A stretch of DNA of 36,331 nucleotides from Clostridia bacterium (GTDB lineage: Bacteria > Bacillota > Clostridia > Christensenellales > Borkfalkiaceae). The notes under the pieces are model-generated. The model saw only the letters and a list, made by a program, of their open reading frames with translations. It was not told the DNA's origin and made no database searches. Where the stretch lies: NCBI GenBank assembly GCA_021204625.1, contig JAJPZA010000153.1, forward strand, positions 1 to 36,331, written 5' to 3'. How positions within the stretch are numbered: the first letter of the stretch is position 1; every line of letters starts with the position of its first letter. A program made the translations under genes and the position numbers. Positions 11,292-29,504 of the stretch are shown piece after piece.

Positions 11292-12365
11292 TCAATAAGT
11301 GTCATCGTCATAGTCATCATCGGTCACATACTTTGGCGGACGCACATAGAAGGATTTGCGGACATATTTCAGGTCATCGGTCATGAATCCCATCTTATCC
11401 TCTTCCTCCATGTCATCAAGCTGCCGCCTGTACTCCCTGCTTTCTATATCCAGGTCCAAGGCCAGCCGGATCAGGCGGATGCTGCTGTACGGAATCACCT
11501 TGTCATCCGTGCACTCCTCATTCTCTATAGGATTATACCTGTCATCCACAGGCAGAAGCGTAAAGGCCTCAGGGTCTTCATTATCGAACGGGACATAAAA
11601 TCCCTTGAGATACGTGCCGTCAGCAAGGACACACTCAACGGCCTTGTAGCTGAACATTATCTTCATGAGGGGGAAGATGTCTTCCTGCCATATTCCTCTG
11701 TTCAGCACATGACTGACATGACTGCTAAGATCTTCCATCCAGCCGAAATAGGCTGAAACGGTGCCGAGAGAAAATACATAGTTGTCTTTTCCGTCGCTCG
11801 GATTGATGACAAAGTAGAAGCTTCCCGGGCCCTCCACATAATCCAGCGAACAGTCCAGCGGCATTCTGTCAGGCTTAAGGCCTTCAAGCTCCGGTATTTC
11901 CGTCAGGCACTTGCGGGAATACAGCGGGGAAATCAGATTGTCCGGTAAATACCTTGTCTCTGATTCAGGCGCTCCCGTGACCTTTTTCCAGCCGCGCATC
12001 TCCTGTGTTTCCTTTGCGGGAAGATCTGCGGACTGCATGAAGATGTTTGTTGTGATTCTTGCATCCTTGTCCCAGCGTTCACAGTAGAAAAGGTCGCAGT
12101 GCCTCATTGCGCTCACGGCGCCTGCATAGCGGAACTCGCTGTCCGGATTCTTCGTAAGCGCCTTTATGCGTTTGTTGAAGTCGCTCACCAGCATTTTGCC
12201 GTTGGCGTCATCTGTGAGCATTTGGATGACCATATCCAGATACCCGTCTGTCAGGACATCCTCCGGATCCTTCGCATACCTCTGAAGAAATCTCCTGAGG
12301 GCAATGCGGTTCTCATCCGTGAGGAATTCCTTTGCATCATAAATGATGCACCTGTCTATTTTCAT
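11292..12365 (-). CDS. Array paralog P20, SseB-like/Sm-like protein with C-terminal extension
   Basis: The last and longest member (357 residues). Landmarks: T-D-E-N-R-I-A-L-R-R-F-L (16-27), A-M-R-H-C-D-L-F-Y (86-94), P-L-Y-S-R-K (147-152), F-V-I-N-P-S (185-190), Q-E-D-I-F-P-L-M (227-234) and E-C-V-L-A-D-G-T-Y-L-K-G (244-255). After the barrel comes a unique extension of about 55 residues (303-357), ending in Tyr- and Asp-rich sequence. It is the close sister of P14 (both have I-Q-[IM]-L-T-D-D-A-N-G and V-E-C-x-L-x-D-G-T-Y-L-K-G), although five genes of another subfamily lie between them. Spacing to P19 is 139 bp. Function unknown. Confidence 0.88.
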   Translation of the reverse strand: MKIDRCIIYDAKEFLTDENRIALRRFLQRYAKDPEDVLTDGYLDMVIQMLTDDANGKMLVSDFNKRIKALTKNPDSEFRYAGAVSAMRHCDLFYCERWDKDARITTNIFMQSADLPAKETQEMRGWKKVTGAPESETRYLPDNLISPLYSRKCLTEIPELEGLKPDRMPLDCSLDYVEGPGSFYFVINPSDGKDNYVFSLGTVSAYFGWMEDLSSHVSHVLNRGIWQEDIFPLMKIMFSYKAVECVLADGTYLKGFYVPFDNEDPEAFTLLPVDDRYNPIENEECTDDKVIPYSSIRLIRLALDLDIESREYRRQLDDMEEEDKMGFMTDDLKYVRKSFYVRPPKYVTDDDYDDDTY

Positions 12366-12504
12366 TCATCACCGTTGTGCCCGTTATTTATCGCGCGTGC
12401 GCCTCTATGGCTTGCACAAACCGCTCCCGGCACAGACACAGGCCGGATCCTTCCTTATGGCAAATGCCAGACTGGTGATTTTGGAACCTGAATTATGTTC
12501 GGAA

Positions 12505-13329
12505 TCACTCTCCTTTATCCCCGGACGGCAGTTCCCGGATCTCAACTATCTCATCCAGTGGAACATACACTGTCCTTCCGCCGGAGGTCCGGATATTGTA
12601 TCCGGGGGCCTGCCAGGATTTGTAGGGGGCTGCAATTCCTGTGACTTCTTTCTCATTGCTGCCGTATATGCAGCATACGTTCCGGTCCAGAAAGTCCTGC
12701 GCAAGGAGCGGGAAAAGATATGAGCCTTCCACTCCGCTGTGCCTGAGGTTTTTCCAGAATTCGTCCACGACCTCAAATTCCTCAAATGCGGACCGGATGT
12801 CTTCAGCGGAATAATAGGCCTTGTTATATGAATGGTTGAGAGTGAGCGTGTCCACTTCCGCGCAGTCGCACTGGTCCAGAATATCGAAGATGTTCGTGCG
12901 GTGCCAGTGGAATTTGCTTATTAGGTCCTTTTCAATCCACTTGCTGCGCGTGTACAGCGGAATGCACTTCTCTCCTTTCAAGCCTTTGCTAAGGATGCTG
13001 TCTCCGTATGCGCTGGTCTCCGCGGAAAGGAAGACAATGTCTGCATAACGCAGATGATTGAGGACGGACAGGTAATAGGTTTCGTCGTAAAAATTGTCCA
13101 GGGCGCATTGTATGGCCGTTTCAAGCCCCTCGGTTGTTGTAAGCTCCGGATCACTGTAATCAGCCAGGACGCGGAGGAAGCATCTGACTGCGTCATTCAA
13201 AGCCTTTTCCTGGTCCGCATCCCCGTCCACGGGTATCATCCGGGCATAATCCCCAAGTATCCTGCGCATGGCCCGGCAGTTTTCCGGGGTGTCCGCTTTG
13301 TTTGTGTCATACTCGGTACTGAAATCCAT
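12505..13329 (-). CDS. Array paralog P19, SseB-like/Sm-like protein
   Basis: A protein of 274 residues in the P15-P19 subfamily: T-P-E-N-C-R-A-M-R-R-I-L (14-25), F-L-R-V-L-A-D-Y-S-D-P (51-61), N-H-L-R-Y-A-D-I-V-F (91-100), P-L-Y-T-R-S-K (124-130), H-W-H-R (141-144), L-F-P-L-L-A-Q-D-F-L (205-214) and a C-terminal barrel ending V-Y-V-P-L-D-E-I (254-261). The usual N-P of the middle domain is N-H (165-166), a departure from the family. The barrel is nearly the same as those of P18 and P15 (W-Q-A-P-G-Y-N-I), while the middle domain is much more diverged. AGGGGTAGG precedes the start. Confidence 0.88.
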   Translation of the reverse strand: MDFSTEYDTNKADTPENCRAMRRILGDYARMIPVDGDADQEKALNDAVRCFLRVLADYSDPELTTTEGLETAIQCALDNFYDETYYLSVLNHLRYADIVFLSAETSAYGDSILSKGLKGEKCIPLYTRSKWIEKDLISKFHWHRTNIFDILDQCDCAEVDTLTLNHSYNKAYYSAEDIRSAFEEFEVVDEFWKNLRHSGVEGSYLFPLLAQDFLDRNVCCIYGSNEKEVTGIAAPYKSWQAPGYNIRTSGGRTVYVPLDEIVEIRELPSGDKGE

Positions 13330-13368
13330 ATAACCTACCCCTGCAGCACGCCGCCCGGCTTCGCGGGC

Positions 13369-14211
13369 TTACTCTTCTTCCTCTTCTTCATCCGGCAGTT
13401 CCTGGATGAACTTTATTCTGTCCAGCGGAACATACACCGTTTTGCCTCCGGCAGTCTCAATGTTGTATCCGGGAGCCTGCCAGGTTTTGTACGGGGTTAC
13501 ATATCCTGTGGCCTCTCTCTCGCTTTTGCCGTATACGCAGTACACGTTCCTTCCAAGGAAATCCTGGGCAAGAAGCGGGAACAGGTCTTCCCCTTCCACT
13601 CCCATCTTTCTGATTCCGTCCCAGAACTCGTCTATGTCATAGTATTCCTCAATGCAGTATCTGAGGTTGTCAATATGAAATGTGTTTTCTATATCCGGCG
13701 GATTGATTGCCATTCCGTCAATCCCTAAATCGTCACAGATGCTTATTATTTCGTCTATGCCGGCATGAAGGAAGCTGAAACCGGCGGCCATGTCCTCCCC
13801 TGCGAGTTCCTCGCGTGTGAATAAGACAATCCCTTTTCCGGTACAATCCTCATACTCCATCTCACACGGGGCAGGCGTTCCGGCAGTGTCGCCGGGCACT
13901 GCGGCATATATCAGGTCCGCATATCTCAGACGGTCAAAAACAGCCACAAAGTATGTGTCCGCACCCTGATCCTGATTCCAAAGCGCCAAAGCAGCCTCCA
14001 GGCCTTCAGGCGTCCCAAGATCCGGGTCAGAGTAATCTGCCAGAACACGGAGATAGATGCCCACTTCCGTGTTTTTACTGCCCTCAGGGTCGCTGTACAC
14101 AGGCACGGACCCGTCTTCACTCTGTGCATATTTCATGAACAGCCGCACCATGCCTCTGCGGTTTTCCGGCGTGTCCACTTTTGTCGTATCGTACTCAAAT
14201 TCGTAATCCAT
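13369..14211 (-). CDS. Array paralog P18, SseB-like/Sm-like protein
   Basis: A protein of 280 residues. It shows the subfamily pattern clearly: T-P-E-N-R-R-G-M-V-R-L-F (14-25), I-Y-L-R-V-L-A-D-Y-S-D-P (52-63), D-R-L-R-Y-A-D-L-I-Y (93-102), V-L-F-T-R-E-E-L (129-136, close to the F-T-x-x-E of SseB), A-I-N-P-P-D (168-173) and V-E-G-E-D-L-F-P-L-L-A-Q-D-F-L-G-R (205-221). The barrel carries Y-C-V-Y-G-K-S (224-230) and V-Y-V-P-L-D-R-I (259-266). It ends in six glutamates after E-L-P-D. AGGAG precedes the start. The acidic end matches that of P16, two genes away, more closely than those of its direct neighbours. Confidence 0.9.
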   Translation of the reverse strand: MDYEFEYDTTKVDTPENRRGMVRLFMKYAQSEDGSVPVYSDPEGSKNTEVGIYLRVLADYSDPDLGTPEGLEAALALWNQDQGADTYFVAVFDRLRYADLIYAAVPGDTAGTPAPCEMEYEDCTGKGIVLFTREELAGEDMAAGFSFLHAGIDEIISICDDLGIDGMAINPPDIENTFHIDNLRYCIEEYYDIDEFWDGIRKMGVEGEDLFPLLAQDFLGRNVYCVYGKSEREATGYVTPYKTWQAPGYNIETAGGKTVYVPLDRIKFIQELPDEEEEEE

Positions 14212-14236
14212 GCAGCGCTCCTATAGTATATGCAGG

Positions 14237-15070
14237 TCATTTTGTTTTATTCGGCAATTCATAAATTCCAATCAAATTGCTTAACGGAATGTACACCCTT
14301 TGGCGGCTGTCAGTTAATATGACGTATCCGGGAGCCGTTCCCGTGCTGTACGGCAGGCAGTAACCCTGGACTGTTTTGCCGTTTCCGTATATGCAGCCTA
14401 CTTTCCGCTGCAGGAAGTCCTGTGCAAGGAGCGGGAACAGGTCCTCACCTGAAACGCCTCCATGGCGGATGCCGCTCCAGAATTTGTCTATCTGACGGTA
14501 TTCATCAATGCATGTATTAAGATTGTCTGCAAGAAAGATTCCGTGGTTTTCACCGGGATTGAGCACAACATGTTTAACGCCTTCCCGCTCACACGTGTCT
14601 ATGATTTCCTCTATTTTGATATGGTGGCAATAGAACGTGCCGGTAAAGTCATTTGCCGCCTTCTTTCTGCGGGTGTACACCGGGAGGCATCTGATATCTT
14701 TTCCGTCCTTGACAAATGAGGTGAAAACAGGCCATCCCAGTCTGTCTGAATCCTCTGACACATATATCATGCTGGCGTATCTCATACGGTCAATGACGGC
14801 AACCATGTTAGTATGAACATGAATATCCTTTTGCCAGAGCTCCACGGCAGCCTCCAGGCTTTCAGGTTTGAGAATGTCCGGGTCACTGTAATCAGCCAGA
14901 ACACGCAGATATATGGTTACGGACGGATCATCCCAACCCTCCGGGTCATTGAACTTCGGATGCTTGCCGTCCGGTCCTAGCGTGTTCTTCTCAAAAAAAC
15001 GCACCATGCCCCTGCGGTTTTCCGGCGTATCCACCTGTGTTGCGTCATACCATCTGTTATAATCCGGCAT
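14237..15070 (-). CDS. Array paralog P17, SseB-like/Sm-like protein
   Basis: A protein of 277 residues. Two ATGs are adjacent (15073 and 15070); AGGAGG is 1 base from the first and 4 from the second, so 15070 is chosen. Landmarks: T-P-E-N-R-R-G-M-V-R-F-F (15-26), I-Y-L-R-V-L-A-D-Y-S-D-P (53-64), P-V-Y-T-R-R-K-K (130-137), C-H-H (148-150), V-V-L-N-P-G-E-N (168-175), S-G-E-D-L-F-P-L-L-A-Q-D-F-L (207-220), C-I-Y-G-N-G-K-T-V-Q-G (226-236). The C-terminus lacks the acidic tail of P16 and P18 and ends P-N-K-T-K. The gap to the P16 stop is 25 bp. Confidence 0.88.
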   Translation of the reverse strand: MPDYNRWYDATQVDTPENRRGMVRFFEKNTLGPDGKHPKFNDPEGWDDPSVTIYLRVLADYSDPDILKPESLEAAVELWQKDIHVHTNMVAVIDRMRYASMIYVSEDSDRLGWPVFTSFVKDGKDIRCLPVYTRRKKAANDFTGTFYCHHIKIEEIIDTCEREGVKHVVLNPGENHGIFLADNLNTCIDEYRQIDKFWSGIRHGGVSGEDLFPLLAQDFLQRKVGCIYGNGKTVQGYCLPYSTGTAPGYVILTDSRQRVYIPLSNLIGIYELPNKTK

Positions 15071-15095
15071 CATCCCTCCTGCCCTTTTCCCGGGA

Positions 15096-15935
15096 TTACT
15101 CTTCTTCCTCTTCGTCCGGCAGCTCCTGGAGGAATTGTATCTCCGCCAGAGGGACCCGGACCATTTCATGGCTTTCCGTATCTATGAAAAACATAGGAGC
15201 ATTGTACCCTTCGGCGTACGGAACGCAGGTTCCTATGGCCTCCTGGCCGTCTCCGTATATGCAGCGGACGGTCCTGTATAGAAAATCCGTTACGAGAAGC
15301 GGGAACAGGTCACCGCGAATGACGCCGCCGCGCCTCAGGCTCTTCCAGAACTTGTCTATCTCCTCGTATTCCTCAATGCAGGCCTTGAGGTTGTCCGCTT
15401 CGAATGTCTCATCCGTGGTGTCCGGATTAATCATTATGTCGTTGATGTCCTCGGCCTCGCAGACGTCAAGAAGATCGAATATGCTGGCATGATGCGTGTA
15501 CATGCCTTCCATGATCTCCTTGCCTATCAGTTTTCTGCGAGTGAACACGGGAAGGGCTCCGGCTTCCTCGCCGTCAACGCCTATCATGCAAAAAGCGGGC
15601 CAGGCGTCGCTGCCCTTGTCCGGAGACAGGTATATGAGGTCTATATATCTCAGATGGTCAAAAAGAGACGTGAAATAGGTGTCGGAATCCTTGTTCTTCT
15701 CCCATATCTCATAGGCGGCCTCCAGGCCTTCAGGCTTGTCCGATGCCGTGTCGGAATAATCCGCCAGCACCCGGAGATAGACGCTTACGGCCATGTCGTC
15801 CGTTCCTTCGGGGTCTTCATAAACCGGGCTTCCGCCGTCCCTGAACTTTGTGTACCTCTCCAGAATGCGTACCATTCCGCGGCGGTTTTCCGGTGTCTCA
15901 ACTTTCGTTGTGTCATACTCTCTCTCGTAATCCAT
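15096..15935 (-). CDS. Array paralog P16, SseB-like/Sm-like protein (relic second start upstream)
   Basis: A protein of 279 residues from the ATG at 15935, which has AAGGGGAA upstream. Landmarks: T-P-E-N-R-R-G-M-V-R-I-L (14-25), V-Y-L-R-V-L-A-D-Y-S-D (52-62), P-V-F-T-R-R-K-L (129-136), T-H-H (147-149), I-M-I-N-P-D-T-T (167-174), R-G-D-L-F-P-L-L (207-214), C-I-Y-G-D-G-Q-E (225-232) and a terminal run of glutamates. The frame is open 14 codons further, to an ATG at 15977 inside P15; those codons (M-D-C-E-F-E-H-D-I-T-K) imitate the start of P18 (M-D-Y-E-F-E-Y-D-T-T-K), so they look like a leftover second copy of the 5' end. Confidence 0.88.
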   Translation of the reverse strand: MDYEREYDTTKVETPENRRGMVRILERYTKFRDGGSPVYEDPEGTDDMAVSVYLRVLADYSDTASDKPEGLEAAYEIWEKNKDSDTYFTSLFDHLRYIDLIYLSPDKGSDAWPAFCMIGVDGEEAGALPVFTRRKLIGKEIMEGMYTHHASIFDLLDVCEAEDINDIMINPDTTDETFEADNLKACIEEYEEIDKFWKSLRRGGVIRGDLFPLLVTDFLYRTVRCIYGDGQEAIGTCVPYAEGYNAPMFFIDTESHEMVRVPLAEIQFLQELPDEEEEE

Positions 15936-15960
15936 GTCTTCCCCTTTGGTGATGTCATGT

Positions 15961-16839
15961 TCAAATTCGCAATCCATGCGATAAAATCCCCGCTAAAATC
16001 TGTTGCTGCTTCTCATCCGCAGGTTCACATATCTCCACTATCTCACTCAAAGGAACATACACAGTCCTGCCGTTTGGGGTCAGGATGTTGTACCCTGGAG
16101 CCTGGCCGTCCGTGTACGGGGAGGCAATGCCTGTTACTGTTTTCACGCCGCTGTACTGGCAGGCAATGATTTTGTATGTGAAGTCCTGTGCAAGGAGCGG
16201 GAACAGGTCTTCTCCTTCCACGCCGCTGACTCTGACGTTTTTCCAGAATGTGTCCACAAGATCACAATAACCGATAAACGTCCTTATATCCTTTAGATTA
16301 TATGCCAAGGTTGTGCTGTACGGATTGATAATGATGTGTTTTATTCCCCCGGCCTCGCACGCTTTGAGAAAACTGGAGACAGTCGCCTGGTGGACATGTT
16401 TTCTGTCGGCAGCTTCATCACGCATCTGTTTTACACTTGTGAATAAGGCAAGCGCTTTCTCAGGCCCATAATCCCCGGAAATATCGCATGATTCAATCTT
16501 GGCGCCTTTATCATCAGCCGATTCATAGAACAGCTTGTTGTATCTCAGACGGTTGCACACTGTCATCATGCATTCAACCGACATCGGATTTTGCTCACGG
16601 AGTTTAAGCGCAGCTTCAAGACTTTGCGTATTGTTCCGCGGCTGGCTGGCATAATCCGCCAGCACACGGAGATAGATGCTCACAGTCAGGTCAACCTTGC
16701 CGTCTTGGTCCGTATATACAAACTTTTCGCCGCTTTTCAAATCCTTCCCATACTTCTCCAGAAGATGAACCATCCCCTTGCGGTTCTCGGGGGCATCAAC
16801 CTGGGTGGGGTCATATTTTCTGCTGTAGTCCAGCGCCAT
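15961..16839 (-). CDS. Array paralog P15, SseB-like/Sm-like protein
   Basis: A protein of 292 residues and first of the P15-P19 block. Landmarks: A-P-E-N-R-K-G-M-V-H-L-L-E-K-Y (16-30), I-Y-L-R-V-L-A-D-Y (55-63), N-R-L-R-Y-N-K-L-F-Y (96-105), A-L-F-T-S-V-K (131-137, very like SseB), I-I-I-N-P-Y-S (169-175), E-G-E-D-L-F-P-L-L-A-Q-D-F (208-220), and a barrel with T-V-T-G (234-237), A-P-G-Y-N-I (247-252) and V-Y-V-P-L-S-E-I (260-267). The tail after the barrel is short, Gln-rich and not acidic. GGAGG precedes the start; the gap to P14 is 15 bp. Confidence 0.9.
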   Translation of the reverse strand: MALDYSRKYDPTQVDAPENRKGMVHLLEKYGKDLKSGEKFVYTDQDGKVDLTVSIYLRVLADYASQPRNNTQSLEAALKLREQNPMSVECMMTVCNRLRYNKLFYESADDKGAKIESCDISGDYGPEKALALFTSVKQMRDEAADRKHVHQATVSSFLKACEAGGIKHIIINPYSTTLAYNLKDIRTFIGYCDLVDTFWKNVRVSGVEGEDLFPLLAQDFTYKIIACQYSGVKTVTGIASPYTDGQAPGYNILTPNGRTVYVPLSEIVEICEPADEKQQQILAGILSHGLRI

Positions 16840-16854: not shown

Positions 16855-17721
16855 TTACTCTTCCGTCCCGTCCTCTGCATCATCTGCATCCGCATCTTCG
16901 TTTGCGGGGTCTTCCTCCATAAAGCGGATGATCTTCAGGTCCTCGTAGCGCACGAAAACCTCTTCGCCATCGTCCGTGGGGTATCCCTCGTCATCCACAG
17001 GAAGAAGGATGAATCCGGCATAGTCCAGGCTCAGTGGCTTGTCAAAAACGCCCTTGAGATATGTGCCGTCCTCCAGGAAACACTCCACCGCGGCACATGT
17101 GAACTGCGCCTTTATGATGGGGCACAGGTCTTCCTTGGAGACACCTTCATACAGGACGTCCGCAAGGCGCCCGGAAAAAACATCCTCCCAGGCGTAATAT
17201 CCGCAGGCATCCTCCAGATCCAGCACGCATCCGTGTGTTCCGGGATTGAGCACGAAGCAGTCCGCTCCGCTGTCCGCTATCCAGTCCTGGATATCGTAGA
17301 AGACATCCTCTTCAAGTTCATAACCTTCAAGCTCCGGGTCATGGGTGAGAGCCTTGCGCGTGTACACGGGGAAGATGGTTCTGCCGGGGAGCTCATCCGA
17401 TTCCATCAAAGGATATGTCACGCCCCCATCATCCCATGAATCGAAGGTGTACAGGTTGACGTGCGCAAGGCCGCTCATAACAGCGCCGTAAAGGAAATCA
17501 TTGCCCTCGTCTGCCATGAAGGCCTTTATGCGCCTGTGGAACTCACTTACCATAACGGTCCCGTTGGCGTCATCCGTGAGAATCTGGATGACGTCGTTCA
17601 AAAAGGCTTCATCCATTTCATCCTGCACGTCTATATATTTGCTTATGAACTTCTTAAGGCCCTCGCGGTTCTCATCATTGAGAAACTGCTTCACATTGTA
17701 CATATCATCTTTGGCTGCCAT
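16855..17721 (-). CDS. Array paralog P14, SseB-like/Sm-like protein
   Basis: A protein of 288 residues. Landmarks: N-D-E-N-R-E-G-L-K-K-F-I-S-K-Y (15-29), I-Q-I-L-T-D-D-A-N-G (45-54), M-S-G-L-A-H-V-N-L-Y (82-91), F-P-V-Y-T-R-K-A-L (117-125), F-V-L-N-P-G-T-H-G (156-164), K-E-D-L-C-P-I-I (196-203, where C replaces the F of L-F-P), E-C-F-L-E-D-G-T-Y-L-K-G (213-224). It ends in an acidic tail (from about 268). It is closer to P20, six genes away, than to either neighbour. GGGAG precedes the start. Confidence 0.9.
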   Translation of the reverse strand: MAAKDDMYNVKQFLNDENREGLKKFISKYIDVQDEMDEAFLNDVIQILTDDANGTVMVSEFHRRIKAFMADEGNDFLYGAVMSGLAHVNLYTFDSWDDGGVTYPLMESDELPGRTIFPVYTRKALTHDPELEGYELEEDVFYDIQDWIADSGADCFVLNPGTHGCVLDLEDACGYYAWEDVFSGRLADVLYEGVSKEDLCPIIKAQFTCAAVECFLEDGTYLKGVFDKPLSLDYAGFILLPVDDEGYPTDDGEEVFVRYEDLKIIRFMEEDPANEDADADDAEDGTEE

Positions 17722-17789: not shown

Positions 17790-18611
17790 TTAATCCTGCG
17801 GGCCGGAGAAAGGCTCAAAATCCTCAATGGGAGGGAAATCATCCATGAAGGAGCATATGTGCATTATGTCCGGGATGAGGACAGAGATGTTTTCGCCGGC
17901 CTGTGTGCGAACGGTGAGCATCTGCTCCATGACGGGCCTGTCCCTGCGCCAGGGCATCACGTCCCCTATGAATTCCTTGTTGTCCTTCATGAGAACTTTC
18001 ACATGGTCATGAACGAGGGCTTCCAGAAGCTCCGGGAAGAGGTCTTCGCCCAGAACGCCCTGCTCCATGGACGTGCTTACGAACTCATCCATTTCATAGA
18101 AGGTCTCAAGGGCCTCCTCTATGCTTGAGACGGAGATCTTCACGTTGTCCTTCTCCGGGTTGAAGAGTATGAAGCGGAGCTCGTTCTCCTCGCACACCTT
18201 TATGATGTCATCCAGGTCCGTGTCATAGAAAGTGGCGTCATCCAGGGAGGGCACGTTTGTGGCCTCCTCAGACGTGTACACGATGAGGGAGTCCATCTTC
18301 TTCTCGCCGGTTCTGCGGACCTGTATCTGCATCCTGCCGTTCTTGTATCTTGCGGCATACCGCAGAGTCTTGTAGCTGAGGCCACTTATGAGCACGTTGA
18401 GCGCAAAGGTGCTCTTAGGATTCTCCCTGTACTTTGCAAAGCGGACCTTGATCTCGGCATCGTCCGGCTCATATTCGCTGACGCTGTCCGCAAGAGCCAG
18501 CAGAGCAGTCCGGACGTCATTGTCCGTGACGTTCCCGCCTTCCATCCTCGTGAACAGCTTTTTCATGCCCTCCACATTCTCCGGCATGAAGATAATGTCA
18601 TAAATATTCAT
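17790..18611 (-). CDS. Array paralog P13, SseB-like/Sm-like protein
   Basis: A protein of 273 residues starting at 18611, chosen because GGGGGAGAG is just upstream (the frame is open to 18659). Landmarks: M-P-E-N-V-E-G-M-K-K-L-F (9-20), I-S-G-L-S-Y-K-T-L-R-Y (75-85), L-I-V-Y-T-S-E-E-A (109-117), D-L-D-D-I-I-K-V-C-E-E (132-142), F-I-L-F-N-P-E-K-D (147-155), L-G-E-D-L-F-P-E-L-L (187-196). The Y-T-S-E-E-A and following helix-strand-N-P block give the clearest resemblance to SseB's N-terminal domain in the whole array. The barrel is less typical: M-K-D-N-K-E-F-I-G (208-216). It groups with no neighbour closely. Confidence 0.9.
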   Translation of the reverse strand: MNIYDIIFMPENVEGMKKLFTRMEGGNVTDNDVRTALLALADSVSEYEPDDAEIKVRFAKYRENPKSTFALNVLISGLSYKTLRYAARYKNGRMQIQVRRTGEKKMDSLIVYTSEEATNVPSLDDATFYDTDLDDIIKVCEENELRFILFNPEKDNVKISVSSIEEALETFYEMDEFVSTSMEQGVLGEDLFPELLEALVHDHVKVLMKDNKEFIGDVMPWRRDRPVMEQMLTVRTQAGENISVLIPDIMHICSFMDDFPPIEDFEPFSGPQD

Positions 18612-21365: not shown

Positions 21366-22208
21366 TCAGTTGCCGGGGCCGAATTCACTGAGGGTGTCCA
21401 TGACGCCTGCCGGGATATGGATGGCAATGTTCTGTATGTTGCCCACAGGAACGCTCATGTCCTTTCCGCCCGCACCGAGGCTTATATGGATTGTGCCGTC
21501 CGCGTAATCCGTCACTCGGCCGGTGACTTCTATGCCGTTTTTAAGGGAGCATGCGACGTTGCGGCCGATGAAGCCGTCCGTGATGATGGGGAACAGGTCC
21601 TCTCCGTCTATCCCGCCTATCATTATCAGAAGCGAGGAGAGTCTTGCGTTGTCCATGTCTCCCATGGCATCCATGAAGTCATAGATGTCTATGTCCAGAG
21701 GGCTTGTGAAAGGGTTTAAGGACAGGGCCCTGAATCCCTCCAGCATACCGCCGTTGTACTTCTGGAGGACAGACGGGAGATTCCCTTTCCTCACCCCGTG
21801 GTCCATCCGCACCTGGGGCGGAATCTGGCCCTCGCCCGTGAAGGCGAGAAGGGACTTGTACCTTCTGCCGGCTATCCGGACCGGGATTACGGGTATGACT
21901 TTCTTTCCCTGCTCGTCCTCGTCCTCAAGGTAATACACGTCCATGTTGTGCAGGGCGCTCATGACGGCATACAGGCGCATGTCATCCTCCGGATCTTCCT
22001 GCGTGTCCTTTATACGCTTCAAAAGCTCCGGCTCGTCTATCTCCGCCGCATGATGGGTGTCCAGAATGCACCTTAGAAACATGGGCACGGTGCAATCATC
22101 CCCGTCCAGGTCTTCCCCGTTGTACTTCTCCAGGAAACGCCTCGCGCCCTCCAGGTTTTCCCGGCTGTTTATGTCCAGCTCTTTTGAAAATTTAGGGTCT
22201 GAAAACAT
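21366..22208 (-). CDS. Array paralog P9, SseB-like/Sm-like protein
   Basis: A protein of 280 residues. Landmarks: D-P-K-F-S-K-E-L (4-11), S-R-E-N-L-E-G-A-R-R-F-L-E-K-Y (15-29), M-S-A-L-H-N-M-D-V-Y-Y (83-93), L-L-A-F-T-G-E-G-Q-I-P (120-130), L-S-L-N-P-F-T-S-P-L-D-I (162-173), D-G-E-D-L-F-P-I-I (201-209), C-S-L-K-N-G-I-E-V-T-G (220-230), then V-P-V-G-N-I-Q-N-I (253-261). It is the most canonical member of the P9-P11 group and keeps both the E-N-x-x-G and G-E-D-L-F-P motifs. The tail is short and uncharged. AGAGGAAG precedes the start. Confidence 0.9.
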   Translation of the reverse strand: MFSDPKFSKELDINSRENLEGARRFLEKYNGEDLDGDDCTVPMFLRCILDTHHAAEIDEPELLKRIKDTQEDPEDDMRLYAVMSALHNMDVYYLEDEDEQGKKVIPVIPVRIAGRRYKSLLAFTGEGQIPPQVRMDHGVRKGNLPSVLQKYNGGMLEGFRALSLNPFTSPLDIDIYDFMDAMGDMDNARLSSLLIMIGGIDGEDLFPIITDGFIGRNVACSLKNGIEVTGRVTDYADGTIHISLGAGGKDMSVPVGNIQNIAIHIPAGVMDTLSEFGPGN

Positions 22209-23334: not shown

Positions 23335-24186
23335 TTATGCAGGCAGGTTCCCGCCGTCCTCAGGCACATCTTCCGCGGAATCCACTTCGAGCCCGTACTC
23401 CCCGTAATCCGCCTCCTCCTGGGTGCGTATCATGGCAAGGTCCTCAAGGCGCACGATGACATCCTCGTCCTCATCCGTCTCAAGCTCAAAGCCGTCTATG
23501 GAGTCATCCTCGGGAAGGAGCACGAGGCCGCTCACAACGGAGCCGTCCTTCATTTTGCAGTCCACGTTGCGGAAGAAGAACTTCTCCACAAGGGCGGGGA
23601 ACAGCTCCTCCGCCTGGATGCCGTCTGCCATGGCCGTGTCTATGCAGTCATCTATATCGTCGAAGAAGGAGACAACCATCCCGGTCTTCTCTATGTCCAG
23701 CAGCACGGGCGTGGTGTCCGGATTTACGATGACGTACTTGAACCCGCTCTCCTTAGCCGCCGCGAGCACTGTGTCCAGGTCCGTATGGTGCCAGTGAAAT
23801 GAAGAGAAATCCTGGGCGACCATCTTTTTGCGTGTGTACACAGGCATTGCCTCTGACTCCACTCCGTCCCCCTCTATTCCTTCATACACAAGGCTGGGGC
23901 CGCACATCTGGCCGTTCTCTTTCGCGGAGAAGTATATGAGCGGCGTGTAGCGGAGGCCGCTTATTACGTAGAAGTTGAAGACGCCGCCGTTCTCATCCAT
24001 GAGTTCCGTCATCCTCTCCTCCATCTTCTTCTGGTCCATGAGCTCGCAGTTGACCGTGTCATACATTGCGAACAAGCAGTACCTGACCTCAGCTTCATCC
24101 GAATCCGGATTGCCTTCACATATCCTCTTGAGGAGCTTTTTCATTCCCTCCAGATTCTCTTCCGTGAACAAGCTGTCTGTATACAT
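23335..24186 (-). CDS. Array paralog P7, SseB-like/Sm-like protein
   Basis: A protein of 283 residues. Landmarks: T-E-E-N-L-E-G-M-K-K-L-L-K-R (8-21), S-G-L-R-Y-T-P-L-I-Y (76-85), M-P-V-Y-T-R-K-K-M (114-122), H-W-H-H-T-D-L-D-T (131-139), V-I-V-N-P-D-T-T (152-159), A-E-E-L-F-P-A-L (191-198), C-K-M-K-D-G-S-V-V-S-G (210-220). The tail is acidic. The middle domain, with its Y-T-R-K-K and H-H pair before the N-P strand, is close to P12 and P17 although these are in other blocks, showing that it is the ancestral pattern. GGGAG lies 8 bases before the start. Confidence 0.9.
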   Translation of the reverse strand: MYTDSLFTEENLEGMKKLLKRICEGNPDSDEAEVRYCLFAMYDTVNCELMDQKKMEERMTELMDENGGVFNFYVISGLRYTPLIYFSAKENGQMCGPSLVYEGIEGDGVESEAMPVYTRKKMVAQDFSSFHWHHTDLDTVLAAAKESGFKYVIVNPDTTPVLLDIEKTGMVVSFFDDIDDCIDTAMADGIQAEELFPALVEKFFFRNVDCKMKDGSVVSGLVLLPEDDSIDGFELETDEDEDVIVRLEDLAMIRTQEEADYGEYGLEVDSAEDVPEDGGNLPA

Positions 24187-24274: not shown

Positions 24275-25044
24275 CTAATCATATGCCAAATGCATTTTGA
24301 CCCATTTAAGGTTTTCCTTGCCTGCAGGAACAACTTTGCCGTCCCGAGTGCTGACGGCAAACGAGTCCGTATAATTGTCCGGAACGGACACCGCTATTCC
24401 GGTGACAAAAGTGCCGTCCTTCATCTTGCAGTCCACGGCCTTCATGTTCATATAGGTGACTATTGCCGGAAACAGCATGTCCCCTGGGATACCGTTCATA
24501 ACAAGAGCATAATTGACCATGCCTTTCGCCCTGTCCAAAGCCTCGCGGTTCTCCTCATACTGATCCAGGCAGAACATCATGACATTTGAATCCGGATTGA
24601 GCATGAACGCCGTGACGCCGGCTTCCGCGCACATGTCCAGCAGGTTGTCCAGGTCCACTTCGTAAATGTCCGCGTCCGGAAATTTTTTGTCCTCGACATC
24701 CTCATTGGTGTTCACGAAAGTGACGGCATCCCTCCCGAAAAAATCCGTTTTTACAAGCTTGCCCGTGTCACAGTCCACAGCGCAGCAGAACGTGGCGTGC
24801 TCCGCTCCAGGCCGCTCATCACCGCATAATACTTGTTCTCCTTGAGGCCGCCGTTCAGCTCCCTGATCCGCCTTTCCATCTCCTCTGCCGAAATCTGATC
24901 CGCGCATGCCTCGTCCACGATGGTCTGGATCATCAGCAGGAGAATGCCGCCGTTCGGCGCCGGCCCTTTCTTCTGGCTGTATTCAAACAGACGCTTCATG
25001 CCGTCAAGATTCTCTTTTGAATATACAAGCTCAAACGGACTCAT
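24275..25044 (-). pseudogene. Array paralog P6, broken by a frameshift
   Basis: The 5' frame starts at 25044 (M-S-P-F-E-L-V-Y-S-K-E-N-L-D-G-M) and is in register with P5 up to G-L-E-R-S-T. The family then continues in another frame from 24790 (F-C-C-A-V-D-C-D-T-G-K-L) through F-M-L-N-P-D-S-N and G-D-M-L-F-P-A-I-V-T-Y-M to the stop at 24275. Against P5, five extra bases (CCACG on the minus strand, plus-strand 24791-24795) sit between the two parts; removing them restores a protein of 254 residues with P5 spacing. It overlaps the P5 stop by ATGA. Either a recent pseudogene or a sequencing error. Confidence 0.85.
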
Positions 25045-25904
25045 GCGTCATCCCCCTGTCCGTCCGGCGCGCTTCCGTCCGGCGCATCTGTCATATACAC
25101 CCTGAGCCATTCAAGCTCCCCTTCCTCCGGATCAACAAACATGGACTGCCGCCCGTTAAGGTCCAGGACCGTGAAGACGGTAGAAAAGTTGTCCAGAAGG
25201 GACACAAGGCAGCCTGTGAACTCCCTGCCGTCCTTCATCCTGACATCCACAATCATCTGGTACATGTAGGTCACAAGCGCAGGGAAAAGCAAATTCCCGG
25301 GAATGCCTTTGTCCAGAACATGATTGACGGCATTTCTGGATGTGTCAAACAGCTCAACGGCATCCTTGTACTCTTCAACCGAGAACACTATGTCTTCGTC
25401 TGCCATGCATATCATGAAGTCATCCCAGCCTTCATTCTCGCATCTGGAGATGAAGTCCGGCATCTTCGTCTCAATTGTTCTGCCCTCTGCCTTGTAACGG
25501 TCCGACTCAGCCTTCTGGGACAATGCAATGCCCGACACAAAATAATTATCCCTGGAACGCTTCGCATCAATCAGCAGCCTGCCTGTTTTCTTGTCCTCGG
25601 CACAGTATACCGTGGAGTGCTGCAGCCCGCTGAGCACAGCATAATACTTGTCCTGCGGTATCCTGGTTTTCTTTTCCAGCCGGATTGTCCCTTCTTCCAG
25701 GGCGTCCAGGCGTTTCTTTATTTCATCGGCGTCCACGAAAATGGCGCACGCCTCATCCACAAGGGACAGGATCATTATGTAGACGGATATCGAATCAAGC
25801 TTTACTGCATCCCCGAACCAGTAACCCATGAGGCGCAGCATGCCGTCAAAGTTATCTTTTGAATATATCAGCTTGAACTGGTCCGGCATCGGCTCTTTTG
25901 CCAT
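25041..25904 (-). CDS. Array paralog P5, SseB-like/Sm-like protein
   Basis: A protein of 287 residues, sister of the broken P6. Landmarks: Y-S-K-D-N-F-D-G-M-L-R-L-M (14-26), L-S-G-L-Q-H-S-T-V-Y (91-100), M-I-C-M-A-D-E-D (164-171, replacing the usual N-P), I-P-G-N-L-L-F-P-A-L-V-T-Y-M (201-214), V-R-M-K-D-G-R-E-F-T-G (221-231). The usual Y-T-R-K in the middle domain is not recognisable (F-V-S-G-I-A-L-S-Q-K), so this copy may have lost whatever that loop does. CAAGGAG precedes the start; a 15-base match to this leader is found in the P3-P4 spacer. The stop overlaps the P6 start. Confidence 0.88.
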   Translation of the reverse strand: MAKEPMPDQFKLIYSKDNFDGMLRLMGYWFGDAVKLDSISVYIMILSLVDEACAIFVDADEIKKRLDALEEGTIRLEKKTRIPQDKYYAVLSGLQHSTVYCAEDKKTGRLLIDAKRSRDNYFVSGIALSQKAESDRYKAEGRTIETKMPDFISRCENEGWDDFMICMADEDIVFSVEEYKDAVELFDTSRNAVNHVLDKGIPGNLLFPALVTYMYQMIVDVRMKDGREFTGCLVSLLDNFSTVFTVLDLNGRQSMFVDPEEGELEWLRVYMTDAPDGSAPDGQGDDA

Positions 25905-25968
25905 TTTATGTCTCCTTGCCTGCTGTTTTCCGCCTGGCTTTATGCCTGCTGCGGATGTGCTGCGAATC

Positions 25969-26787
25969 TTAAACTTCCCCGCGGTCTATCTCCTTGATCC
26001 ATTTGATTGCGCTCACCGGCATATTGTACTCCTTGTCCGTATTGTAGTTATATATTGAGACGGCCATCTCATTGCTCTCGCGGTCTATGAAAAGCACTCC
26101 GGTCACAATCTTGCCGTTAAACTTGCATTTCACATAATTCTCGCTGAACGTCATGAGCAGAAAATCAAAGAAGTCCTCTCCGTTAAAACCCTCCCCCTTC
26201 TGCCTGAGGATAAATTCCAGAGAGGAATCCAGGTTTTCCAATGTATGTTCTATGCCCTCAATGGAAAAAACACGGCTTTTGTTATATGTCGGATCCAGAT
26301 ACACATAATCCACCCCGGCATTGCGGCACATTTTCATGACAGCCTTGAGATTTGTCTGGTGCATGGACGTGTCCGGCACCAAAGGGTTCCTGCTATGCCG
26401 CTTGCTGGAGTACAGGGGCATCACCGGCAGATGCTTCTCCTTCATATCCTCTTCGCCGGGCTCGATAAGATTTACAAACACCGGTCTGCCCGGTTTCCCT
26501 TTGGCTCCGGACTTTTCGGAGAGATATACAAGTTTGGCATATTCCATGCCGCTCACGAGAGGCAGCCAGGTCTCCGCTGACGGATTATTGATGTAACCAT
26601 CCAGGCGCATCTCCATGTCATACCAGCCAATCCCGCTCATGCGGTCGCAAAGCACGCATATCACCGCGCTTGCGAAATAGTCAGCCTCGTCCTCAGGATA
26701 GGAGCCTGTCCGGGCCGCGTATTTCTTCAACAGTCTTTTCGCTGCCTCATGGTTTTCCGGCGTGTTGTAAAACAGGGTAATGTTCAT
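25969..26787 (-). CDS. Array paralog P4, SseB-like/Sm-like protein
   Basis: A protein of 272 residues of the P1/P3/P4 subfamily, which opens Y-N-T-P-E-N-H-E-A-A-K-R-L-L (7-20). Landmarks: S-G-M-E-Y-A-K-L-V-Y (79-88), M-P-L-Y-S-S-K-R (123-130), M-H-Q-T (142-145), Y-V-Y-L-D-P-T-Y (161-168, D-P for N-P), N-G-E-D-F-F-D-F-L-L (202-211), C-K-F-N-G-K-I-V-T-G (221-230) and I-K-W-I (261-264). The L-F-P of other members is F-F-D. The gene ends right after the barrel with no extra tail. CGGAG precedes the start. Confidence 0.9.
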   Translation of the reverse strand: MNITLFYNTPENHEAAKRLLKKYAARTGSYPEDEADYFASAVICVLCDRMSGIGWYDMEMRLDGYINNPSAETWLPLVSGMEYAKLVYLSEKSGAKGKPGRPVFVNLIEPGEEDMKEKHLPVMPLYSSKRHSRNPLVPDTSMHQTNLKAVMKMCRNAGVDYVYLDPTYNKSRVFSIEGIEHTLENLDSSLEFILRQKGEGFNGEDFFDFLLMTFSENYVKCKFNGKIVTGVLFIDRESNEMAVSIYNYNTDKEYNMPVSAIKWIKEIDRGEV

Positions 26788-26861
26788 CTTCCGCTCCGTC
26801 TGCCCGCAGCCGGGGAATGGCTCATATCAGTCTTTTCCTTCTGTGATCATTATGGAATTCG

Positions 26862-26909
26862 TCACTGTCCATTGTGCAAAAACTGGCCAGGCATCCGGGC
26901 CGCAGCCAT
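26862..26909 (-). pseudogene. Relic 5' end of a lost P5-like paralog
   Basis: In the 157-bp spacer between P3 and P4, the minus strand has CAGGCAAGGAGACAT (26913-26927), identical to the leader of P5 (25908-25922), followed 4 bases on by an ATG and the codons M-A-A-A-R-M-P-G-Q-F before a stop. P5 begins M-A-K-E-P-M-P-D-Q-F after the same leader. The ribosome binding site, start codon and M-P-x-Q-F are thus preserved without a gene behind them. Confidence 0.65.
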
Positions 26910-26944
26910 TGCATGTCTCCTTGCCTGTTTTTTTCCTGCGTGAG

Positions 26945-27745
26945 TCAAGCTTCGATTTCATTGATTGATATGACTTCTCTCATTGGCAGCTTGAGCTCAA
27001 TGCCGGTCTTTGAGTCGCGCAGCGTGAAATCAGTTAAATATTCATCATACAGATATCCGTCATCGTCTAATGAAACCTTTCCGGAGAAAACGCCGCCGGG
27101 GATTTCGCATCTTGCATGCTTTCCGCTGAATGACATCAGCAGGGGATAAAAAAGATCCTCCCCCTTGATTCCCGCGCGCCTGATCATTCTGATTGTACCC
27201 GCGGCCGTGTTCAGATGCCAGGTGTAATGCTTGACAGTATCTGTGCAAATGCTGACCGCATCTTTTACCGGATCTATGAGCAGACTGTCAACTCCTGCCT
27301 CGTCACACAGATTGAGAATGACATTGAGATATGTGCGGTGCATTGCCTGTGACGGTTCAATCCAGCCAAAGCCGCCGAATTCTGCGGTGAGCAATGTCAT
27401 CACGTCACATTTTCTCTTTGTGCCGTCATCTGCAACCATGTTGACGGTTCTGATTACGGGCTTTCCGGTTTCCCTGTCTTCAATACAAATAAGCTGGGAA
27501 TACCTCAATCCGCTTATGACAGCCATAAGATTTTCATCAGAGTCATCCCGGCAATACTTCAGCAGGCGTCCTTCTATTTCATCGGCGGCAAGTCCGCCGC
27601 ACATATCGTCGCAGAGAGCGCATAAGAATGCGCTGGCAAAGAAGTCATACTCCTCTGCATCATACTGCTCAGTGGCGTGCTCCATCAGCAGTTTTTTCGC
27701 CTTCTCCAGATTTTCCTGTGTGTTGTACAGTTCAAGCAAATCCAT
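26945..27745 (-). CDS. Array paralog P3, SseB-like/Sm-like protein
   Basis: A protein of 266 residues, the shortest intact member. Landmarks: Y-N-T-Q-E-N-L-E-K-A-K-K-L-L (7-20), F-A-S-A-F-L-C-A-L-C-D-D-M (36-48, shared with P4's F-A-S-A-V-I-C-V-L-C-D-R-M), I-S-G-L-R-Y-S-Q-L (77-85), A-M-H-R-T (134-138), S-L-L-I-D-P-V-K-D (154-162), K-G-E-D-L-F-Y-P-L-L (194-203), C-E-I-P-G-G-V-F-S-G (213-222). Instead of Y-T-R-K it has L-L-T-A-E-F. It ends directly after the last barrel strand. The gap to P2 is 22 bp. Confidence 0.9.
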   Translation of the reverse strand: MDLLELYNTQENLEKAKKLLMEHATEQYDAEEYDFFASAFLCALCDDMCGGLAADEIEGRLLKYCRDDSDENLMAVISGLRYSQLICIEDRETGKPVIRTVNMVADDGTKRKCDVMTLLTAEFGGFGWIEPSQAMHRTYLNVILNLCDEAGVDSLLIDPVKDAVSICTDTVKHYTWHLNTAAGTIRMIRRAGIKGEDLFYPLLMSFSGKHARCEIPGGVFSGKVSLDDDGYLYDEYLTDFTLRDSKTGIELKLPMREVISINEIEA

Positions 27746-27767
27746 CTTCCATCCCCTGCCATGCCGC

Positions 27768-28661
27768 CTATGCCTTCTTGTAGCTCTTGCTGCCCTTGGG
27801 CGCAGGAATATGCTTTATGGTGCCAAGATTATCAGTGTAAATGACCTTCGGGCCTTTTTCCGTCCTTAAAACAAATCCCTTCGGCCACCACACGTCCGGA
27901 ACTTCATATGCTTCAACCCAGCCGCCGAAAACCGTGCCGTCCTTCATGGCGCATTCTGCGTATCTGCCGTAATACTGCTCCATCAGTGCAGGAAACAGGT
28001 CTTCCCCGGACATCCCCGCCTGGATAACCTCCTGCAGCTTCTTCTCCAGGCTGAACAGCCTGGAACCCGCATCATTGATTTCCTCGAACGTGAAGCTTAG
28101 ATTATATGTGTCCGGATTAAGCACAACCGTGGAAATTCTGCGCATGCCGCATGCAAACAGCAGACTCGAGTAGCTGTAGCGGGAGCAGTCTCCCTTATAT
28201 TGTGGTGAAACATGTTTTGGCGTGGTATATATATACGCCTTATAGTTCTTTCCATCCACATAGGCCCTCAGGAAATTCCCTTTGAAAATGCCGGTTTCTC
28301 TAAGCAGCACTGTAGTGTGCCTCAGCCCGCTTAGCACAGACATTCTGGCAACGGAGATCATATTGGACACATTTATGCGGGCCTGCATGTCCGCATCATC
28401 CATTACCTTGAAGAGCTGCATGAACTGGTCATACAAATCCGGCTTCTGATTAAGCACGTTCCAGTAATATTTGACTCTCTTGTCATACTCAGCGGATGCG
28501 AGCCTCCCTCTGCCGGAATCCACAAGGGTCAGAACAATAGCGTTGATAAGAATATCCGGATCATAATTCTCATCCGTGCCGCCGTACAGCCTTTCGGCCA
28601 GTTTATAAGCCCCTTCAAAATCATAATCGGGCTCTTCGTTAAGATCCACTTCTTTCGCCAT
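27768..28661 (-). CDS. Array paralog P2, diverged SseB-like/Sm-like protein
   Basis: A protein of 297 residues with a different N-terminal region: the E-N-x-x-G motif is absent and about 30 residues are added before M-S-V-L-S-G-L-R-H-T-T-V (107-118). From there the plan is normal: Y-I-Y-T-T-P-K (143-149), V-V-L-N-P-D-T-Y (179-186), M-S-G-E-D-L-F-P-A-L (217-226), Y-Y-G-R-Y-A-E-C-A-M-K-D-G-T-V-F-G-G (230-247). The C-terminus is basic (K-S-Y-K-K-A). It separates P1 from its relatives P3 and P4, so a divergent copy lies inside that block. AGGGGG precedes the start. Confidence 0.88.
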   Translation of the reverse strand: MAKEVDLNEEPDYDFEGAYKLAERLYGGTDENYDPDILINAIVLTLVDSGRGRLASAEYDKRVKYYWNVLNQKPDLYDQFMQLFKVMDDADMQARINVSNMISVARMSVLSGLRHTTVLLRETGIFKGNFLRAYVDGKNYKAYIYTTPKHVSPQYKGDCSRYSYSSLLFACGMRRISTVVLNPDTYNLSFTFEEINDAGSRLFSLEKKLQEVIQAGMSGEDLFPALMEQYYGRYAECAMKDGTVFGGWVEAYEVPDVWWPKGFVLRTEKGPKVIYTDNLGTIKHIPAPKGSKSYKKA

Positions 28662-28679
28662 TTATGCAATCCCCCTGCG

Positions 28680-29504
28680 TCAGTCCGTGCCGGTGCCTTT
28701 TTCTTTAGAAACAGCATATGTGACCTTGATTTCCTGGATGCTCTTGATGCTGTCCACAGGCATTGTGATTGTCACAGAGGGCCGGAAATTCTTAATAGTA
28801 ATCCTGTTGTCACAATCTGCGGAGATGTATGCCATTCCTTCCATTATCCCTTCACCCTGTGCGCATCTTACGGGGCGGCCGTCGAAGGACAAGAGAAGCG
28901 GAGTGAACAGTTCATCCCTGCTGAATCCGTAAAACCTTGTTTTTCTCACTACCTCTCCGGCTGCATCCAGCTGAACTGAGCAGCTTTCTATCTCTTCAGG
29001 CCCGAAAACAATTGCCTCCGGAGAAGGGTCTATAAGGAACAGGTCCAGTCCGGCTTTGTCACACATTTTAAGAATGCTGTTAAAGCCGGTCAGATGCATG
29101 GAATCTCCGTCTTCCATCCATCTGTTATGCTTGGATTTCTCATAAAAGAGCGTCACGGCATCCATCACTTCAACACTGCCGTCATCCTGCAGTATGTTCG
29201 TTGGACATGTCTTAATCTTCCCGTCCGGACCCGCAATATAGGCAAGCCTTGCATGCCTCAGCCCGCTTATGACAGCCATGAGGCCATCATCGGACGGATT
29301 ATCGTAATAATCATTGACGCGGCTGGCTATCTCATGCTTGTCCAGCCCGCTGCTCAGGCTGTCACACAGCTCATACATGAGTGCGTTTGCAAAGAAATCA
29401 TAGAACCCCTCCTCATACTCATAGGCCGGATCCGCAAATTTTTTCAGCAGTTTCTTTGCCGCCTCGTGGTTTTCCGGAGTGTTGTATATCTTAAGCAAAT
29501 CCAT
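28680..29504 (-). CDS. Array paralog P1, SseB-like/Sm-like protein, first of the array
   Basis: A protein of 274 residues directly behind the Zn-macrodomain gene (34-bp gap, no terminator between). Landmarks: Y-N-T-P-E-N-H-E-A-A-K-K-L-L-K-K-F (7-23), I-S-G-L-R-H-A-R-L-A-Y (79-89), T-L-F-Y-E-K-S-K (118-125), M-H-L-T (136-139), L-F-L-I-D-P-S-P (155-162), R-D-E-L-F-T-P-L-L-L-S-F (196-207), I-K-S-I-Q-E-I (253-259). As in P3 and P4, D-P replaces N-P. The barrel's first strand reads V-R-C-A-Q-G-E-G without the D-G of other copies. AAGGTGAAG precedes the start. Confidence 0.9.
   Translation of the reverse strand: MDLLKIYNTPENHEAAKKLLKKFADPAYEYEEGFYDFFANALMYELCDSLSSGLDKHEIASRVNDYYDNPSDDGLMAVISGLRHARLAYIAGPDGKIKTCPTNILQDDGSVEVMDAVTLFYEKSKHNRWMEDGDSMHLTGFNSILKMCDKAGLDLFLIDPSPEAIVFGPEEIESCSVQLDAAGEVVRKTRFYGFSRDELFTPLLLSFDGRPVRCAQGEGIMEGMAYISADCDNRITIKNFRPSVTITMPVDSIKSIQEIKVTYAVSKEKGTGTD

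Follow-up and report, generated by a model that had tools for sequence, protein, structure and literature searches.

Twenty consecutive genes on the minus strand (P01-P20) fill the whole interval 11292-29504 and belong to one protein family with a predicted three-part plan. Their order is conserved in a related species, and in a recently expanded cluster divergence is concentrated in a single domain. We suggest, with a probability of about one half, that the copies are a diversified group of adaptors, or chaperone-like proteins, that bind other proteins, display varied SseB faces on a common scaffold and are made from one operon.

One family in tandem

The host is a gut Clostridia genome. The window (the whole stretch of DNA analyzed) is 36,331 nucleotides long. 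The initial annotation had described twenty same-strand genes, one of them frameshifted, that share a protein plan, and the open reading frames and profile searches bear this out. Nineteen of the twenty frames are open; P06 alone is split over two (24275-25044). The claim depended on profile similarity among the copies, and such similarity joins all 19 intact ones, with E-values from 5e-25 to 9e-74 when each is scored against the HMM built from the remaining 18. P06 was searched as two separate pieces against the profile of all 19 intact copies, giving E 9.6e-14 and 5.8e-31. As a control, 950 shuffled sequences were compared with the full profile and gave a best E of 0.0086, the nominal database size being 1000 throughout. 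All twenty earlier readings of the GEDLFP-type motif are correct; its start lies at 56-74% of protein length in the 19 copies that are intact. The 19 intergenic gaps have a median of 25 bp, a maximum of at most 157 bp and in 11 cases a length of 30 bp or less, figures that depend on the starts chosen for P13, P16 and P17. The proteins are acidic, and no signal peptide was seen in them by eye. The copies are listed below with their leave-one-out HMM E-values; Q01-Q12 are the copies of the sister array described later.

28680..29504, minus strand, P01, copy 1, 274 aa; E 1.9e-46; groups with sister Q01
27768..28661, minus strand, P02, 297 aa; E 2.4e-25; ortholog Q02
26945..27745, minus strand, P03, 266 aa; E 9.8e-47
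25969..26787, minus strand, P04, 272 aa; E 4.2e-48
25041..25904, minus strand, P05, 287 aa; E 3.3e-34; ortholog Q03; near relative P0047
24275..25044, minus strand, P06, broken, overlapping frames 24751-25044 and 24275-24907; pieces E 9.6e-14 and 5.8e-31
23335..24186, minus strand, P07, 283 aa; E 7.8e-57; ortholog Q05; top window match of P0043, P0044 and P0045
22235..23179, minus strand, P08, 314 aa, long acidic tail; E 5e-25; ortholog Q06
21366..22208, minus strand, P09, 280 aa, the modeled copy; E 1.5e-49; relative P0004
20478..21344, minus strand, P10, 288 aa; E 1.5e-36; ortholog Q07
19608..20459, minus strand, P11, 283 aa; E 1.4e-40
18705..19589, minus strand, P12, 294 aa; E 3.2e-53; Pfam SseB 26.2 bits (cut-off 21); ortholog Q08
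17790..18611, minus strand, P13, 273 aa, frame open to 18659; E 6e-47; ortholog Q09
16855..17721, minus strand, P14, 288 aa; E 6.6e-43; ortholog Q10, 80% identical
15961..16839, minus strand, P15, 292 aa; E 8.5e-65; Pfam SseB 22 bits (cut-off 21); ortholog Q11
15096..15935, minus strand, P16, 279 aa from a later ATG; E 8.9e-74, computed with the start at 15977, to which the frame is open
14237..15070, minus strand, P17, 277 aa, frame open to 15169; E 3.2e-71; SseB 19.2 bits, under the cut-off
13369..14211, minus strand, P18, 280 aa; E 2.8e-71; SseB 18.2 bits, under the cut-off
12505..13329, minus strand, P19, 274 aa; E 4.2e-66; ortholog Q12
11292..12365, minus strand, P20, copy 20, 357 aa; E 1.7e-37

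Predicted domain plan

The array proteins are predicted to begin with a helical part, continue with an SseB-type domain and end in a barrel of the Sm/Hfq fold. This prediction is based on an AlphaFold2 model of P09, the sole copy modeled, together with profile searches. In the model (pLDDT 88, pTM 0.84) helices occupy residues 16-87, the SseB domain 89-174, a linker helix 175-198 and the Sm barrel 199-265. The predicted barrel has the five strands and N-terminal helix of Sm/LSm/Hfq proteins, and the GEDLFP landmark is its first helix. The three parts seen earlier can therefore be named by prediction. Calling the family uncharacterized was not quite right, because the middle domain is of SseB type by profile and the landmark helix is predicted to begin a barrel of the Sm/Hfq fold. 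The literature searched yielded no description of the SseB and Sm-barrel pairing or of such an array.

The SseB profile PF07179 (SseB standing for 'enhanced serine sensitivity') scores P12 and P15 above the cut-off and P17 and P18 just below it, and gives no match in the other 16 of the twenty copies, of which 18 were scanned at E<=1 (P06 through its 3' piece) and two at E<=0.01. When a 19-row profile of the array was aligned by hhalign with ten SseB stretches, the two families matched over 110 columns (95.4%, E 1.8e-8). PF14581, the SseB C-terminal domain, had no Pfam match in the array copies scanned; the predicted Sm barrel stands there instead. Foldseek gave no significant match for the N part and the middle fold (families listed by VIA), and a search for solved structures with two classical SseB stretches returned none that was relevant.

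If the barrels formed homo- or hetero-oligomeric RNA-binding rings, the locus would encode RNA-associated Sm-like proteins, perhaps in place of Hfq. The predicted fold agrees with this, as does the failure to find Hfq (PF17209) anywhere in a genome that is about 94% complete, a family that 5 of 14 control genomes match. Two solo copies of the family also have RtcB as a neighbor and, in the case of G000, a DUF2828/DUF7788 gene. However, the net charge of the Sm segment is 0 to -15 in all 19 window copies considered, with +1 and +2 in two of the twelve copies of G025, and because of this charge we disfavor a replacement of Hfq by RNA-binding rings. Nor did any copy match a Pfam Hfq or LSM family (18 copies at E<=1, P06 by its 3' piece only, and two at E<=0.01). 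Sm-like proteins can, moreover, work by binding protein: Rof (YaeO) binds Rho (PMC11018626). Taken together, RNA rings appear unlikely. We favor instead the view that the Sm barrel serves as a scaffold. EDC3 is another member of the Sm superfamily that binds protein.

Conserved order and the location of variety

A related species carries 12 copies (Q01-Q12) at the same site, on JAJPZC010000132.1, a contig with the same proteins as G025:C173. Since this separate assembly has a collinear array, an assembly artefact is an unlikely source of the one described here. Eleven of the 12 sister copies pair with window copies in identical order, leaving 8 of the 19 intact window copies without a counterpart. 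The cluster P15-P19 expanded recently and is represented in the sister array by two copies, Q11 and Q12. Over the eleven ortholog pairs dN/dS (NG86) is 0.08-0.39, well below 1 in every case.

The family seems to be under selection for variety, as proposed in the initial annotation, and in recent copies the variety lies mostly within the middle domain. Within P15-P19 identity is 26% in the SseB domain, 48% in the N part and 55% in the Sm barrel; the SseB region is aligned with less certainty than the rest, and a second calculation from independent pairwise alignments gave this result again. P05 and its near relative P0047 likewise differ mostly in the SseB domain. In other clusters the excess of SseB divergence is weak or absent, and between species the SseB domain and the N part are conserved to the same degree. 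Domain swapping between copies, a conceivable source of the SseB variety, was judged by pair identities only, in which P15/Q11 and P19/Q12 are closest in SseB too.

These observations are best accommodated as follows. Each copy would present a different SseB-type binding face through its middle domain, the N-terminal helical part and the Sm-fold barrel would be the scaffold common to all, and the copies would be produced together from a single operon. After a duplication the SseB domain might diverge towards a new partner, and the new copy would then be held by purifying selection. The SseB domain is probably the part that binds a partner, which we infer to be a peptide or protein, be it one of the cell's own or a foreign one such as a toxin or phage protein. 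The retention of eleven copies in the same order in both species suggests that such partners are stable. One can go further and imagine that the Sm barrels of different paralogs join up, so that mixed rings or chains show many SseB faces at once for protein capture, the faces being renewed by duplication and SseB-only diversification; this addition is a long shot.

Would decoys, or relaxed and nearly neutral duplicates, look the same? Fast amino-acid change, the broken P06 and a patchy presence (arrays in 2 of the 93 genomes of the genus) might be expected of them. Yet 19 of the twenty frames are intact, and because eleven copies persist as collinear orthologs under the constraint given above, the decoy role entertained earlier is very unlikely; like the RNA rings, it is disfavored. 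Another thought is that the genes encode subunits of one fixed hetero-oligomeric machine. Their single orientation, small gaps, conserved order and one conserved candidate promoter would suit it. The eight copies that lack a sister counterpart, the breakage of P06 and the recent expansion of P15-P19 would not, and we consider such a machine quite improbable.

Flanking features

Upstream of the array lie the following.

30445..30474, no strand assigned, hairpin with a 13-pair stem between the MATE gene and the macro gene plus array, a possible terminator; listed by the scan on the plus strand only
30367..30395, minus strand, promoter candidate for the array operon, hexamers TTGCTT and TATACT 17 bp apart, with TG one base before the second; read by eye
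29542..30315, minus strand, macro-domain protein-ADP-ribose hydrolase, first gene of the presumed operon; NCBIfam NF003163, 353.9 bits (cut-off 272)

The consensus promoter scan did not list the candidate promoter; its hexamers and spacing are identical in the sister genome, although the reading frame behind it has decayed there. On the minus strand, TTTC comes after the hairpin in this genome and TTTTT in G025. The genes presumably form one operon. The macro gene was considered as a necessary partner and rejected, because in the sister genome it is broken while the array and the candidate promoter persist. The array of this genome adjoins a GGGtGRT gene. No RNA family reached its gathering score in the window.

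Occurrence and the question of immunity

Members of the family occur in three genomes of the genus (G000, G025 and G094), in a set with one genome per species, many of them incomplete, searched with the array profile, by which distant solo copies may be missed. In a sample of the order 4 of 396 genomes matched, the host included, and the other three have one copy each. In a sample of the class a solo-copy profile matched 1 of 391, the host itself; counts from this class search are lower bounds, since it scored just 7 of 22 candidates in the window's own genome. PF07179 was found in 14 of 397 other sampled genomes of the phylum, with at most three matches each and those on separate contigs, and divergent arrays could be missed because this profile detects only 2 of the twenty copies here. 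Pattern searches of genome contigs returned nothing for the P09/P0004 pair and, for P15-P19, one hit, the sister genome.

A viral origin was rejected after patterns of the P15-P19 type were run against viral contigs and none of 51 stretches was confirmed; BFVD had no match at E<=0.001 (best 3.6e-3). Annotation as a defense system was likewise dropped, the best PADLOC match (E 0.0068, one member each) not being of note. An NCBIfam search of the array gave nothing better than E 0.018.

The initial annotation had also considered immunity. In a homogeneous polyimmunity locus each copy would neutralize a different phage protein or toxin delivered by neighboring bacteria, with SseB as the toxin-binding part. 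PMC3482391 describes such loci as distantly related tandem paralogs in one orientation, with small gaps and no toxin genes between them, from families that include SUKH, Imm6 and Imm11. The array has this layout. Its proteins are acidic, its change is domain-specific and its copy number differs between the two species compared (20 versus 12). RHS-core genes are present in 21 of 93 genus genomes searched, and G001 has two RHS matches at a distance of about 3.5-4.6 kb on the downstream side of GGGtGRT. Still, none of those 21 genomes encodes a family member, and the three member-bearing genomes are without an RHS core. No LXG or WXG100 was found in the window's genome, and no recognized toxin gene in the scanned subset of neighbors of nine solo copies. 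The scanned ORFs that flank the array in the window include no recombinase. A recombinase adjoins several known polyimmunity loci, not all, and the term SseB was not found in the available text of that paper (PMC3482391). The stable partners suggested by conserved order also argue against this role. What stands of the immunity proposal is the layout; a link to toxins, secretion or mobile elements was not found in the genes and genomes examined, and we regard the role as possible but doubtful. Beside one solo copy stands an HTH-nucleotidyltransferase, and proteins of this type can be part of toxin-antitoxin pairs.

Comparison with known systems

The large tandem arrays known to encode intracellular binders are chiefly immunity loci, whose function is betrayed by a toxin link. 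In this array no such link was found, the order is kept between species and the variety of recent copies is concentrated in one domain. It differs from polyimmunity loci in its conserved order and in that no toxin link was found and no recombinase recognized. If the SseB face is the part that confers specificity, the twenty copies would be natural variants for finding SseB ligands, a question that the passages of PMC9503650 on it answer only by prediction. That source describes ADP-ribosylation systems whose genes include SseB and TY-Chap, and with these systems the locus shares an SseB-type domain and an adjacent upstream macro ADP-ribose hydrolase; a difference is that the macro gene here is not a necessary partner. 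With classical SseB (PF07179) the copies share the middle domain, and they add to it the N-terminal helical part, the C-terminal Sm barrel and the tandem arrangement. Compared with the Sm/LSm/Hfq superfamily, the barrels are mostly acidic, sit inside a larger protein and have no Pfam Hfq/LSM match. Heteromeric Sm rings are the counterpart in design of the mixed rings imagined above, whose use here would be protein capture.

Array layout and family relatedness

The features of the window that concern us here are the following.

11292-29504, minus strand: twenty successive ORFs in the ORF listing of the window, copies P01 to P20 of one protein family, running from 29504 down to 11292
24275-25044, minus strand: P06, the sole broken copy, split over two frames (24751-25044 and 24275-24907); its best match in the window is its neighbour P05
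29542-30315: protein-ADP-ribose hydrolase (macro), intact in the window and decayed in the sister genome G025 (L019:700-1510), the stretch upstream being conserved
30509-33124: 871-residue MATE-type transporter, whose long C-terminal extension has no Pfam match above cut-off

The other 19 array ORFs are open. Among the 19 intergenic gaps the median is 25 bp and the longest 157 bp, with 11 at or below 30 bp, figures that depend on the starts chosen for P13, P16 and P17. The initial annotation read these twenty genes as one diverged family sharing a GEDLFP helix; checked against the array ORFs, all twenty of its motif readings are correct. Its claim of common descent is borne out as well. Each intact copy was left out in turn and searched with a profile of the remaining ones, and for all 19 the match has E <=5e-25. 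The two pieces of P06, searched separately against the profile of all 19, give E 1e-13 and 6e-31; with the full profile, no shuffled control out of 950 scored better than E 0.0086.

The MATE gene is separated from the macro gene and the array by a hairpin, which on the array strand has TTTC after it in the window and TTTTT in G025; the scan reported this hairpin solely for the strand opposite to the array. TTGCTT-17-TATACT, with TG before TATACT, may be the promoter of the array. This candidate was read by eye and is absent from the 16 hits of a consensus promoter scan, which are not above chance. Its hexamers and spacing are identical in G025, in which the macro ORF that follows has decayed.

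Occurrence and conservation of the array

Members of the family occur in three of the 93 genomes of the genus: the window's genome (the array and solo copies on three further contigs), G025 (12 copies in an array and two solo) and G094 (one). Single copies are present in 3 of 395 other genomes of the order sample, and none was found in 390 other genomes of the class sample. The window's genome is 2.84 Mb with 5.35% contamination, the other 92 of the genus being 1.1-2.4 Mb; no Hfq was found in the whole of it.

The solo copies, used as queries, matched 36 proteins. Several proteins known from further contigs each have a single window copy as their clear best match: P0004 (P09) and P0043 (P07), which carry the locus tags LUD51_05700 and LUD51_05710 and whose contigs are 107,589 bases long; P0044 (P07) and P0048 (P05), from contigs of 56,770 bases; P0045 (P07), contig of 37,888 bases; and P0047 (P05), contig of 1,980 bases. 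We infer that the equally long contigs of each pair are the same contig.

The array in G025 lies in the same setting, bounded by GGGtGRT and McsA-McsB-ClpC at one end and by a macro remnant and MATE at the other. In the tree 11 of its 12 copies pair one to one with window copies in strictly identical order, and best BLAST hits concur, P01/Q01 being the least clear pair. Six congeners examined have other genes, varying between ORF listings, flanking GGGtGRT, and no family members were found in them.

Divergence by domain

Array proteins of the two species share 38-80% identity; their dN is 0.12-0.59 and their dN/dS 0.08-0.39 (NG86; dS is near saturation). For the flanks dN is 0.007 (GGGtGRT), 0.10 (ClpC), 0.14 (McsB), 0.16 (McsA) and 0.30 (the compared tail of MATE). 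Given this last value, the array is not alone in changing fast. It is the comparison by domain that is informative. The predicted plan is an N-terminal helical part (N), an SseB-type domain, a linker helix and an Sm/Hfq-fold barrel (Sm); the linker, the least conserved segment between orthologs and in three of the four clusters, was left out of the comparisons below.

Mean identity by domain
Pairs; N; SseB; Sm; SseB lowest
P15-P19 (recent cluster, ten pairs); 48%; 26%; 55%; 10/10
Orthologs (11 pairs); 56%; 56%; 63%; 6/11

The SseB/Sm ratio differs between the two sets (p 2e-4, the pairs not being independent), and multiple alignment gives the same contrast as pairwise comparison. Within P15-P19, five of the six SseB strands are 12-24% identical and the first 32%. 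The extreme close pair is P05 and P0047, identical at 85/96 residues in N, 24/24 in the linker and 68/71 in the barrel, but at only 38/77 in SseB. SseB falls below both N and Sm in 120 of all 171 window pairs. In the other three clusters SseB-specific divergence is weak or absent, and the P07 orthologs show no divergence concentrated in SseB. Our reading of these comparisons is that new copies would diverge in SseB and would then be held.

Solo relatives and the question of immunity

Solo and short relatives have the following settings.

L020:3349-7392 (window's genome, G000:C24): solo relative directly before RtcB and a DUF2828/DUF7788 gene
L024:1267-9339 (G025:C56): the same arrangement, with a WCX-domain gene and a Schlafen AlbA_2 gene upstream
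L022:5586-6200: short relative, first helices and GEDLFP-Sm kept, SseB missing, tail very acidic
L024:5666-6412: short relative of the same build
L041:3249-8275 and L042:143-5433 (genomes G186 and G265): solo copies after type I restriction subunit R

RtcB and DUF2828/DUF7788 were assigned by Pfam in the window's genome and by likeness to the listed sequence in G025; these surroundings look RNA-repair-like. In G186 and G265, which are close genomes, subunit R is of different kinds and a similar gene lies between it and the solo copy.

The array might be a poly-immunity locus, and its layout fits the definition in PMC3482391. However, LXG, WXG100 and RHS core were not found in the window's genome, and none of the 21 genus genomes (of 93) with RHS cores has a family member. 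The neighbours of the nine solo copies examined are RtcB with the DUF2828/DUF7788 gene, an HTH-nucleotidyltransferase and a metallophosphatase, genes after type I restriction subunits, an unrecognised 1186-residue protein and EF-G (named by eye). These neighbours and the toxin search, which covered LXG, WXG100 and RHS cores, make poly-immunity less likely. RHS-core genes reach 10 matches per genome in the genus; in G001 (G001:C6:78544-79904) two RHS matches are located some 3.5-4.6 kb downstream of GGGtGRT, the flank that the array occupies in the window's genome.

Proposed function and comparison with known systems

Most likely, helical part and Sm barrel would form a common scaffold on which each copy displays an SseB face of its own. 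The partners may be endogenous or foreign. The net charge of the Sm segment is 0 to -15 in 19 of 19 window copies and slightly positive in 2 of 12 G025 copies; since the segments are neutral to acidic in all 19 window copies, a classical RNA ring is argued against.

We file the array as a diversified tandem paralog locus, a known kind; for the SseB-Sm pairing, or such an array of it, we found no description in those parts of the literature on SseB and Sm-like proteins that were searched. Among known systems, poly-immunity loci as defined in PMC3482391 resemble the array in layout. Action through protein binding has a precedent among Sm-fold proteins in Rof, whose partner is Rho (PMC11018626).
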